From an uncultured Sphingosinicella sp. (lineage in GTDB: Bacteria; Pseudomonadota; Alphaproteobacteria; Sphingomonadales; Sphingomonadaceae), in NCBI RefSeq assembly GCF_902806315.1, contig NZ_CADCWD010000056.1, positions 1 to 63,793 on the forward strand: a DNA stretch of 63,793 bases. Direction: 5' to 3'. A model generated the notes under the pieces. That model was not told where the DNA came from. It saw nothing but the letters and a program-made list of their open reading frames with translations, and made no database searches. Shown piece after piece: positions 7,034 through 29,910 of this stretch. Made by a program: the position numbers and the translations under genes. Numbering within the stretch: the stretch's first letter is position 1; the number at the start of each line of letters is the position of its first letter.

Positions 7034-7393
7034 TTAGACGGTGAAGCTCTCGCCGCAGCCGCAGGCGCCCTTGGCGTTCGGATTTTCGAACACGAAGCCG
7101 GCGGTGAAATCGTCTTCCTTCCAGTCCATGCGGCTGCCGATCAGATAGAGGATCGAGGCGCCGTCGACGTAGAAGGTGCCGCCGGGCGTGACGATCTTCT
7201 CGTCGAACGGCTTTTCCTCGCTAACATAATCGACCGAGTAAGCGAGGCCGGAGCAGCCGCGGCGGGGAGTGGAAAGCTTGACGCCCACGGCGCCCTCGGG
7301 TGCGCGGGACATGAGCGCAGCGATGCGCGCTTCCGCGGAGGGGGTGAGGGTGAGCGCGGCTGGACGCGCGCGGGTCTTGGTCTCGGTGCTCAT
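7034..7393 (-). CDS. sufA: A-type Fe-S carrier protein SufA
   Basis: 119-residue HesB/IscA/SufA fold protein that carries an Fe-S cluster from the SufBCD scaffold to target enzymes. The three ligand cysteines are present: Cys47 in RRGCSGLAY, and Cys111 and Cys113 in GACGCGESF near the C-terminus. The ATG at 7393 shares one base with the sufT stop (TGATG); a GTG one codon earlier is also possible. It is the last gene of the suf operon. ErpA or IscA cannot be strictly excluded by sequence alone, but the context favours SufA. Confidence 0.92.
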   Translation of the reverse strand: MSTETKTRARPAALTLTPSAEARIAALMSRAPEGAVGVKLSTPRRGCSGLAYSVDYVSEEKPFDEKIVTPGGTFYVDGASILYLIGSRMDWKEDDFTAGFVFENPNAKGACGCGESFTV

Positions 7394-7890
7394 CACAGCA
7401 TACCCAGTTCAAGCTTGGCCTCGTCGCTCATCTTCTGCGGGTCCCAGGGCGGGTCCCAGACGAGCTCGACTTCGGCATCGCCAATGCCCGGAACGGCGCC
7501 GACACGGAGCTCGATCTCGCCGGGCATCGACTCCGCGACCGGGCAGTGCGGCGTGGTCAGGGTCATGGTGACCTTGGCGTGGTTCCCGGGCAGGATCTCG
7601 ACGCCGTAGATGAGGCCGAGATCGTAGATGTTGACCGGGATCTCCGGGTCGTAAATCTCCTTGAGCGCCTCGATCACGGCCTCGTAGAGGTCGCCGCCGG
7701 GCTCGACCGGAGCCGGCTCGGCAGGCTTCTGCGCGAGGAAGCCGCTCAGATAATCCTTCTTGCGCTGATAGCCTTCTTGGGCGCCCGCCAGAGGCGAGTT
7801 GGGTGTCTCGATCACGTCCGAGACGCGCGCCTTGGGCGGGCGTGGCGCCGCGTCGACTTCCTCGATCTCGATCTTGCGTTCTTCGTTCAT
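7393..7890 (-). CDS. sufT: SufT, MIP18/DUF59-type Fe-S maturation factor
   Basis: 165 residues: a charged, probably disordered N-terminus (about 1-65), then a DUF59/MIP18 domain with ALKEIYDPEIPVNIYDLGLIYG, TLTTPHCPVAESMP and VWDPPWDPQKMS. SufT proteins help mature Fe-S enzymes when demand is high. Its start overlaps the sufS stop by 4 bp and its stop touches the sufA start, so it is translated as part of the operon. Cytosolic. Confidence 0.92.
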   Translation of the reverse strand: MNEERKIEIEEVDAAPRPPKARVSDVIETPNSPLAGAQEGYQRKKDYLSGFLAQKPAEPAPVEPGGDLYEAVIEALKEIYDPEIPVNIYDLGLIYGVEILPGNHAKVTMTLTTPHCPVAESMPGEIELRVGAVPGIGDAEVELVWDPPWDPQKMSDEAKLELGML

Positions 7891-9233
7891 CCGAAAATTC
7901 TCGTCACCCGCTCGATGCCGCGGACCAGCGCCTCGACATCCTGTTTGCCATTATAGACGCCGAAGCTCGCCCGTGCCGTCGCATCCACGCCGAGATGCTC
8001 CATCAGCGGCTGCGCGCAATGATGTCCCGCGCGGATCGCGACCCGGCTCTCGTCCAATATGGTGCCGATGTCGTGCGGATGCACGCCCTCGATGGAGAAG
8101 CTGACGATGCCGGCACTGTCGTCGGGCCCGAACAGGCGGACGCTGTTCAATGTCGAAAGGGCGTGCCGCGCCTCGCGCACCAGCGCCTCCTCGTGCGCGG
8201 CGATGGCGTCGAGGCCGATCTCCTCGACATAGTCGATCGCCGCGTGGAGACCGAGCACGCCGACGACGTGCGGCGTTCCCGCTTCGAAGCGGGCGGGCGG
8301 GGGAGCGAAGGTGGTCTTGGTGAAGCTCACCTTGTCGATCATCGCGCCGCCGCCATGCATGGGCGGCATTGCATCGAGCAGGTCGCCTTTGCCCCAGAGC
8401 ACGCCGATGCCGGTGGGGCCGTAGAGCTTGTGCGCCGAGAAGACGTAGAAGTCGCAGCCGAGCGCCTGAACATCGACGGGCATGCGCGGCACGGCCTGGC
8501 AGCCGTCGAGCAGCAGCAGGGCGCCGACGCGGTGGGCGAGATCGGCCGCCCGCTGCGCATCGAGAACGGAACCGAGCACGTTGGAGATGTGGGCGAGCGC
8601 GACGATCCTGTGCCGCTCGGTGAGCATGCCGGCCATCGCATCGAGGTCGATGCGGCCGTCGGCGGTGAGCGGGGCGACGTCGATCTCGGCGCCGACGCGG
8701 TCGGCGACCATCTGCCAGGGGACGATGTTCGAGTGGTGCTCGAGCATCGAGAGCATGATGCGGTCGCCGGCTTTCAGGAAGGTGCCGCCCCAGCTCTGCG
8801 CGACGAGGTTGATGCCTTCGGTCGCGCCGCGGACGAAGACCACTTCCTCGGGCACCTTTGCGCCGATGAATTCCGCCGTGCGGCGGCGAGCGGCCTCGAA
8901 GGCGAGCGTCATGTCGGCCGAGCGCTGGTAAATGCCGCGGTGAACCGTGGCGTATGTCTCCGCATAGCCGCGGGTGATGGCGTCGATGACGGGGCGGGGC
9001 TTTTGCGCGGTGGCGGCGGTGTCGAGATAGGCCCATCCGTCTGGGATGGCCGGGAAGTCTGCGACGCGGTCGAGCGGGCGGGTCCCAAGATCCTCCCCGG
9101 CACGGGGAGGGGGACCAGCCGCAGGCTGGTGGAGGGGGCTTTCCATGCGCACAGAGGGGCTCAGGACCCCCTCCACCGCACCTTGTGCGGTCCCCCTCCC
9201 CGTCCCGGGGAGGATCTCGTTCGCTTCGCTCAT
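7887..9233 (-). CDS. sufS: Cysteine desulfurase SufS with repeat-derived N-terminal extension
   Basis: PLP enzyme that takes sulfur from cysteine for SufBCD. The 448-residue reading includes the core starting near TRPLDRVADFP, the PLP-lysine segment FSAHKLYGPTG and the active cysteine in RAGHHCAQPLM. I chose ATG 9233 because it overlaps the sufD stop (ATGA), like the other joins of this operon. From that start about 45 residues (EILPGTGRGT to RAGEDLG) come from a palindromic repeat (9088-9217), making it about 40 residues longer than usual SufS. An internal start (ATG 9147) is possible but is itself inside the repeat. Confidence 0.92.
   Translation of the reverse strand: MSEANEILPGTGRGTAQGAVEGVLSPSVRMESPLHQPAAGPPPRAGEDLGTRPLDRVADFPAIPDGWAYLDTAATAQKPRPVIDAITRGYAETYATVHRGIYQRSADMTLAFEAARRRTAEFIGAKVPEEVVFVRGATEGINLVAQSWGGTFLKAGDRIMLSMLEHHSNIVPWQMVADRVGAEIDVAPLTADGRIDLDAMAGMLTERHRIVALAHISNVLGSVLDAQRAADLAHRVGALLLLDGCQAVPRMPVDVQALGCDFYVFSAHKLYGPTGIGVLWGKGDLLDAMPPMHGGGAMIDKVSFTKTTFAPPPARFEAGTPHVVGVLGLHAAIDYVEEIGLDAIAAHEEALVREARHALSTLNSVRLFGPDDSAGIVSFSIEGVHPHDIGTILDESRVAIRAGHHCAQPLMEHLGVDATARASFGVYNGKQDVEALVRGIERVTRIFG
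9088..9217. repeat. 130-bp compound palindromic repeat inside sufS
   Basis: Outer arms AGATCCTCCCCGG and CCGGGGAGGATCT, then GGGGACC-type sequence, then inner hairpins CCAGCCGCAGGCTGG and CCGCACCTTGTGCGG, and finally GGAGGGGG facing CCCCCTCC around a short unique centre. It is the same family as 29775-29910. Here it is read in frame as part of sufS, so it contributes a Pro/Gly-rich N-terminal segment instead of lying between genes. Confidence 0.85.
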
Positions 9234-10314
9234 CGCCCGCCCAACCACGCCATGGCATTCTCATGAAACGCATCCCGCACTTCCTCCTCGCCGATGCGGT
9301 CGATCGCGTCGGCGACGAAGGCCTGGGTGAGGAGCGCCTTGGCCTCCTGCGGAGCGACGCCGCGGCTGGCGAGATAGAAGAGGGCGTCGCGGTTGAGTTC
9401 GCCCACGGTGGCGCCGTGGGCGCACTTCACGTCGTCGGCGAAGATTTCGAGCTCGGGCTTCGCGTTGATCGTGGCGGTGCGGGAGAGGAGCAGGCCCTTG
9501 AGCGACTGCTCTCCGTCCGTCTTCTGAGCGCCGCGGGCGACCTCGACGCGGGCGGCGACCGAGCAGGTGGCCTTGTCGTCGGCAACCGAGCGCCAGACCT
9601 GGCGGCTCATGCCGCCGACCGCTTCGTGGCGGACGGCGAGGTTGGCGTCATGACGCTGCGTGCCGCGCGCGAGCAGGGCGCCGCCGAATTCCGCGAACGC
9701 CGCGTCGCCGGTGAGCGTGAGCTGGCCGTCCATGCGGGTGTCGGCGCCGCCGGCGGAGAGCGTCGCGACGATCAGGCTGGCGCCTTCGCCGATGACGGCG
9801 TGATCGTTGAGGCTGACATAGCCGGCGCTGGAGAGCAGGCGGCGGTTGAGCATCAGCCGTGCGCCCCTGGAGAGGCGGATCGAAGTGAGGCGGTTGGCCC
9901 AGCCCTCGCCGATATAGGTTTCGACCACGGACGCCTGGGCATCGACGTCGAGCTCGATCTCGGCCGGAAGATGATCCGCCCCGCCGGTGGTGACGTGAAC
10001 GATCTGCACCAGTCCCTGCGGCGCATGATCCTGGCCGAGCTTGAGCTTCCAGCCCTCGCTGCCGACCAGCCGGGCGAGTGCGTGGTCGGCCGGGTTCGCC
10101 TGCACCGAGCCGATCTCGATCGTGCCGAGGTTGCTCTGGTCGGCCGCGAGCTTGCCGTCGATGAAGACCAGCCGCGGCCCCTCGCGCGCACAACCGATCC
10201 ACGGCAGCGCTTCCGGCACGGTGCCAGCGGGCTGCCGCGCGACGATCTCCGGCAGCGCCGAGAGGTCGCTCCAGCGCCAGCCTTCGGTGCGGTTGGAGGG
10301 GAGTTCGAGCAGGC

Positions 10315-10318
<4 letters not shown>
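9230..10318 (-). CDS. sufD: Fe-S cluster scaffold protein SufD
   Basis: 362-residue partner of SufB and SufC in the SufBC2D scaffold. It has the right-handed beta-helix region typical of SufB/SufD (IELDVDAQASVVETYIGE, ARVEVARGAQKTDGEQ) and the C-terminal conserved block PELEIFADDVKCAHGATVGELNRDALFYLASRG, whose His and Cys belong to the cluster-forming interface with SufB. ATGA overlaps join it to sufC upstream and sufS downstream. Length is slightly short of E. coli SufD (about 420) but usual for alphaproteobacteria. Confidence 0.95.
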
Positions 10319-11058
<740 letters not shown>

Positions 11059-29774: not shown

Positions 29775-29910
29775 GATCCTCCCCCGCTTCTACAGGGGAG
29801 GGGACCGCGGGAAACGCGGTGGAGGGGCGGCGCGTAGCGCCGACTGACTCAGCATTGCCCCTCCACCGCACTTCGTGCGGTCCCCCTCCCGCGGAAATCC
29901 GGGGGAGGAG
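29775..29910. repeat. Compound palindromic repeat between ssb and yceD
   Basis: Arms AGATCCTCCCCCGC and GGATTT...GGGGGAGGA-like ends, with inner hairpins ACCGCGGGAAACGCGGT and CCGCACTTCGTGCGG and GGAGGGGC facing GCCCCTCC. Same family as the copy in sufS. It fills the gap between two convergent genes and may act as a bidirectional terminator. Confidence 0.8.

Follow-up and report, generated by a model that had tools for sequence, protein, structure and literature searches.

In-frame capture of palindromic repeats by genes is usually told from scattered single insertions in rickettsiae. The Rickettsia palindromic elements (RPEs) are described, in the accessible part of PMC10969869, as palindromes of about 100-150 bp which lie in frame in unrelated genes and encode a consistent peptide. 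A second source (PMC3733652) reports truB as a target of RPE-1 in R. conorii and, more widely, names TruB as a gene hit by repeats of unrelated kinds in four hosts: Rickettsia, S. maltophilia, E. litoralis and S. alaskensis. This paper, by Di Nocera et al. 2013, also describes GTAG/CGTC-tagged REPs in sphingomonads as dispersed palindromes and dimers of inverted units, and in E. litoralis and S. alaskensis it finds REPs within genes for tRNA synthetases and TruB; the CGTC units are given there with stems of 8-9 bp, a CGTC-type tag and a CCA-like tail (PMC3733652). The text consulted makes no mention of sufS.

The window analysed here is a stretch of 63,793 nucleotides from the draft genome of an uncultured Sphingosinicella sp. 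(2.69 Mb in 97 contigs, 95.8% complete), and it holds a palindromic repeat inside sufS. In Zymomonas mobilis, a sphingomonad relative, the suf operon, sufS among its genes, is of importance when cells grow aerobically, so SufS is no dispensable target as far as the accessible part of that source goes (PMC10746277). One enzyme and one junction have been struck about 30 times; the repeats belong to several families, the hosts are free-living, and insert-free sisters are at hand. This recurrence lets one ask whether such insertions are tolerated or used and what guards the frame, as a natural experiment on selfish DNA. Among the freely available papers listed by searches on Sphingomonas palindromes, REPIN/MITE, SufS extensions and intragenic REPs, none reports a repeat in sufS; an earlier mention is possible.

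The repeat within sufS of the window

On the minus strand of the window, sufS occupies 7887-9233 and encodes a cysteine desulfurase of 448 aa (PF00266, Aminotran_5, 8e-140; best PDB match E. coli SufS, 2e-123). Its start overlaps the stop of sufD (9230-10318, minus strand; PF01458, 5.4e-53) in an ATGA at 9230-9233 on the same strand, an arrangement suggestive of translational coupling. Upstream lies an open reading frame at 10315-11058 (minus strand, start approximate), named sufC, an ABC ATPase, from its sequence and the operon order, and no repeat is found between sufC and sufD in the window. The sufS stop is overlapped by the open reading frame of the next operon gene (7393-7890, minus strand), which we take to be DUF59-like and whose N-terminal arm served as the repeat control.

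The repeat, designated F1, spans 9088-9217 (minus strand) and is a 130-bp compound palindrome, with outer arms at 9088-9116 and 9189-9217 (29 nt, 97% complementary) and inner arms at 9128-9138 and 9167-9177 (11 nt, 100% complementary). It touches sufS codons 6-49, encoding residues 6-49. A first-pass annotation had placed such a palindrome inside the sufS frame, and the arms, a family in the same genome and the open frame bear this out. The ATGA overlap that it described is likewise present, and its estimate of about 45 Pro/Gly-rich, repeat-encoded residues agrees with the codons touched and with a gain of 129 nt relative to the nearest relative, G022.

SufS aligns with E. coli SufS from residue 58 (ADFP), before which the E. 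coli chain has nine residues; the core residues of the two proteins agree, and the Aminotran_5 domain covers residues 69-436. In an AlphaFold2 model residues 53-448 form a confident fold and residues 1-52 have a pLDDT below 50. The model was built on a 39-row alignment without relatives of the tail, so a low pLDDT would be expected there in any case and is weak evidence of disorder. The core of this SufS has conserved residues and a confident predicted fold, and the host protein may still be made and functional. In-frame starts are present in the window at the sufD overlap, just upstream of it and within the repeat, and no in-frame ATG, GTG or TTG lies between the repeat and the conserved core. 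If translation begins at a standard codon, some of the tail must therefore be encoded by the repeat. A start downstream of the repeat, which the first-pass annotation had named as an outcome that would overturn its reading, is ruled out in the window for standard codons.

The SufS tree groups the window with G022 and G023, both insert-free. The sufD stop and the DFP codon are 170 nt apart in the window, whereas in G022, whose SufS is 91% identical, the spacing is 41 nt; the gain of 129 nt corresponds to 43 codons. Since the junction of this sister is shorter by that length, the insertion seems recent, dating from after the split from G022. A comparison with close relatives, of the kind proposed as a check in the same annotation, shows both to be without the insert, and as far as sequence can tell a shared extension devoid of repeat character is not what the Sphingomonadaceae show either, 118/165 junctions being short and free of motifs. 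An assembly accident is an unlikely source of the insert, because the frame is clean and a genome of another genus, G113 (locus L229), has F1 at the same sufS site and in the same frame, with the peptide ILPGTGRGT...PLHQPAAGPPSRPGEDL.

F1 as a dispersed family

In the source genome, F1 gives 34 BLAST matches (E <= 0.001), which a hand count resolves into 23 distinct places, the difference arising because palindromes match both strands. At least six further copies are near full length and 78-84% identical, and G113 gives 98 matches. For all repeat families these copy-number searches counted both strands and scored no more than ~40 candidates, so that the figures, that for G113 among them, are not exact counts. 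An alignment of 11 F1 copies resolves two modules of ~60 nt arranged as an inverted pair, both following the pattern TCCTCCCCgg..GGGGAGGGGGACC-stem-GGTGGAGGGGG; single modules are also present. An Rfam search of F1 returned no match above the gathering score, only sub-threshold plant and animal miRNA hairpins, the best at 39 bits against a threshold of 137, and membership of an Rfam RNA family is ruled out on that score.

A second F1 repeat of the window was found by BLAST, unstranded, at about 29776-29910, outside the suf operon. It corresponds to the copy which had been reported between ssb and yceD (gene names from the first-pass annotation). Apparently, the genes on its two sides are convergent.

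Thirteen of the 23 places were examined, and in seven of them F1 lies in frame within a gene, six genes being concerned: sufS, glyS (2 copies), truB, lnt, ligD and a hydantoinase/oxoprolinase gene. The second half encodes a common peptide, PLHxxxxGPPxxxGEDL, in sufS, glyS, the hydantoinase gene and truB, and in the SufS of G113 as well. The copies at C96:21934 and C7:9614 are intergenic, and the one at C47:6491 lies just ahead of the ligD start. As a separate observation, the gene for the glycyl-tRNA synthetase beta subunit (L002:113-2656 = C15:13514-16057) carries two separate in-frame F1-type insertions, and truB (L005:1089-2738, contig C17), with its in-frame F1, may be a second recurrent target.

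The resemblance to RPEs that had been proposed holds in that F1 is in frame in six unrelated genes. Compared as a kind and by description, F1 is like RPEs palindromic, dispersed and multi-copy, with several copies in frame in unrelated genes, and TruB is a target common to both according to the accessible text of PMC3733652. F1 differs from RPEs in its hosts, which are GC-rich free-living sphingomonads, and in that one junction is struck repeatedly by different families. The CGTC REPs described in the same text are short, while F1, compared with them by eye, is ~130 bp long and has 29-nt outer arms. In its two inverted ~60-nt modules, seen in the 11-copy alignment, and in its single modules it recalls REPINs, pairs of inverted REPs that a RAYT moves, but the source genome and 10/16 repeat-rich relatives lack a RAYT-type Y1_Tnp. 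Similarly, it shares with bacterial MITEs a short non-autonomous form and terminal inverted repeats, whereas no constant target-site duplication was found around nine own-genome F1 copies, where the longest shared flank word was 2-5 nt at varying places; the search for a parent transposon was confined to PF01797. With this profile (Y1_Tnp) no match was obtained in the source genome (95.8% complete), while controls matched in 5/14, nor in 10/16 repeat-rich relatives, including the F1-rich genomes G012, G113, G010 and G006. The domain is present in the remaining 6/16, with no clear relation to repeat copy number. A RAYT as the mover of F1 is thus not supported.

Recurrence and reading frame at the sufD-sufS junction

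A SufS match was obtained in 186 distinct Sphingomonadaceae genomes, and the sufD-sufS junction was measured in 170. Five junctions were dropped (L202, L208, L217, L241 and L266), leaving 165; in those five, several hundred bases, mostly an apparent other gene, lie between sufD and sufS. The 165 comprise 118 short junctions, 38 long ones in frame and nine long ones out of frame. Repeat motifs of the seven families recognised (F1-F7) occur in 0/118 short junctions. All short (118/118) and all in-frame-extended (38/38) junctions have a start codon between -10 and +5 relative to the sufD stop, and in the latter no stop interrupts the frame between the coupled start and DFP. By eye, 33/38 in-frame extensions were assigned to the seven families, regular expressions concurring for 30/33; for L037 and L157, which the expressions missed, the family is supported by BLAST search. 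The other five (L025, L190, L197, L234 and L239) were assigned to no repeat family. Five families (F1, F2, F3, F5 and F6) were tested for multi-copy status, and all five are multi-copy in host genomes. Some single genomes gave few matches, with one F3 match in G157 and three F5 matches in G138 (both strands counted, not exact).

With family as the state, the 33 repeat-assigned inserts require 31 changes on the SufS tree, a number that is approximate, as this is a quick maximum-likelihood tree of SufS cores with many weak inner branches (55/167 open). Most inserts therefore arose separately, which points to about 30 separate in-frame captures by different repeat families at this junction in the Sphingomonadaceae. 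The window is thus no isolated case, a point on which the first-pass annotation is to be amended, in-frame extensions being present in 38/165 junctions, 33 of them assigned to palindromic families, and in other genes of the same genome. A separate scan, whose named examples stand outside the 165 counts and in some cases come from the same species as counted genomes, found junction inserts in Parasphingorhabdus sp. (L088, F1-like), Sphingopyxis granuli (L125), Novosphingobium sp. (L112) and Sphingomonas natans (L133), as well as one insert shared by Pelagerythrobacter aerophilus and Altererythrobacter sp. C41 (L115, L121). L281 and L115 share an insert of equal length which differs by six synonymous and seven non-synonymous codon changes, too few to judge constraint.

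Long junctions are in frame in 38/47 cases against at most one third by chance (binomial 3e-11, ignoring relatedness), the expectation of one third supposing that the coupled start is kept and that insert length is random. By a rough count of events the proportion is 31/39 (p = 4e-9). This bias points clearly to selection on the reading frame at sufD-sufS, as is expected if the inserts are translated. Nine junctions (9/47) are out of frame with the coupled start, and eight of them have an ATG at a distance of 39-42 nt from DFP, upstream of it; this is the ordinary arm length and would offer another route to an intact SufS. No ATG, GTG or TTG is found in the final 42 nt before DFP in 23/38 in-frame-extended genes; the other 15/38 have at least one and may use a late start. 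Of the three phases, that of SufS is open in 38/38, and the other two in 16/38 and 13/38; as the 38 were chosen for openness, the comparison says no more than that this frame is unusual.

The control junctions differ from this picture. At sufC-sufD of the same loci, 9/64 junctions are strongly structured, and 9/9 of these have a native-position start after the repeat, 36-39 nt before the anchor, which means that the repeats there sit between genes; in 3/9 the loose rule finds an in-frame start upstream as well (Fisher 7e-4 with the 3/9 count). One of 25 measurable sufB-sufC junctions is structured. The listed repeat motifs occur in 0/168 junctions in the N-arm of the gene after sufS, where 11/168 pass z < -2.5 and ten of these resemble ordinary coding sequence; the other, L036, has a palindrome before that gene which belongs to none of the seven families. 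In a wider class set, 48 loci from the 103 genomes with a match were analysed, and 46 junctions of other alphaproteobacterial families had sufD upstream. None of these carries a motif (0/46), and no strong structure was found in the 26 that were folded (lowest z -1.3). As far as the sequences go, in-frame capture is, among the tested junctions, concentrated in the Sphingomonadaceae and at sufD-sufS.

Explanations for capture at sufD-sufS

We consider it likely that the window repeat was copied recently from a dispersed palindromic element and is translated as a probably disordered SufS tail of about 43 residues which the core tolerates. A copy of F1 would have landed within the first sufS codons and been translated as an N-terminal tail. 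Ribosomes would reach sufS by coupling from sufD, so that the start codon is fixed, and an element just behind the coupled start would survive only when it is of frame-preserving length and free of in-frame stops. The native arm ahead of DFP is variable among relatives; short and presumably unconstrained, it would leave an enzyme core able to bear extra residues, and capture would work like that of the Rickettsia palindromic elements. We infer that the tail is translated, that it is disordered in the cell and that neutral tolerance is the reason for its retention. The term 'domesticated', applied to the repeat in the first-pass annotation, implies a use that finds no support in these results. 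Tolerance alone does not account for the lack of motifs (0/168) in the gene after sufS, whose N-arm is likewise variable, and long.

The rival readings concern the RNA, selection, the insertion process and the start codon. For the RNA of the sufS strand (9080-9260, minus) the folding energy is -126.2 kcal/mol, where shuffled sequences average -86.1 (z -8.1; 0/200 shuffles as good), and so stable a hairpin at the sufS start could be an RNA element lowering SufS translation or protecting the sufBCD mRNA, with lower SufS favoured and the tail a by-product. Among the 47 long junctions, 25 in-frame and four out-of-frame ones are structured at z < -2, and 27 and four at z < -1.9. With fewer shuffles, 29/165 pass z < -2.5, of which 27 satisfy the start rule in its loose form and 26 in its strict form (L032, L036 and L153 fail). 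At the same z cut, these 29/165 stand against 11/168 at the next junction (Fisher 0.002), which look like ordinary coding save L036, and in L032, L036, L153 and L159 the junction is structured with the repeat outside the frame. Yet structure alone needs no frame-keeping, and most cases are in frame; moreover, 118/165 genomes manage without a long insert and 11/38 in-frame extensions are weakly structured (z >= -1.9), which leaves the RNA element an unlikely cause. Across species the first stem base lies at +1 to +65 of the sufS start, with at least 13 nt ahead of it in 18/27, and a rule on hairpin position was dropped, the folds being too varied. We are similarly doubtful of recurrent selection for palindromes at this junction, whereby the hairpin would set SufS below SufBCD or the tail would alter partner contacts, with some 30 convergences.

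Were an insertion enzyme to recognise the sufD-sufS overlap or gene-end sequence, recurrence would reflect target choice and not tolerance, in keeping with ~31 separate events at one junction and with the motif-free arm of the next gene. Seven families of unlike sequence would, however, need one target, the nine F1 copies lack a constant target duplication, the source genome and G012, G113, G010 and G006 lack Y1_Tnp, and sufC-sufD takes repeats too (9/64 structured), so that we regard targeted insertion as quite improbable. Translation might also begin past the repeat, for example at a non-standard codon, and leave the repeat as an untranslated spacer; the accessible text of PMC3733652 holds that many REPs at the 5' ends of open reading frames may be extragenic, with translation starting downstream. 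Against this stand the lack of an ATG, GTG or TTG past the repeat in the window, a junction length (d modulo 3) that suits the coupled start in 38/38, by construction, and the sufC-sufD repeats, truly intergenic, which each precede a native-position start (9/9). A late start is accordingly the least credible of these readings, and very improbable.

Under the preferred reading of a tolerated, translated tail, the long Pro/Gly-rich SufS starts annotated in sphingomonads are probably real, and annotators may be warned against treating them as start-site errors. At four other loci (L027, L035, L037 and L157) the palindrome apparently begins within the last sufD codons, and it may there supply both the sufD stop and the sufS start.
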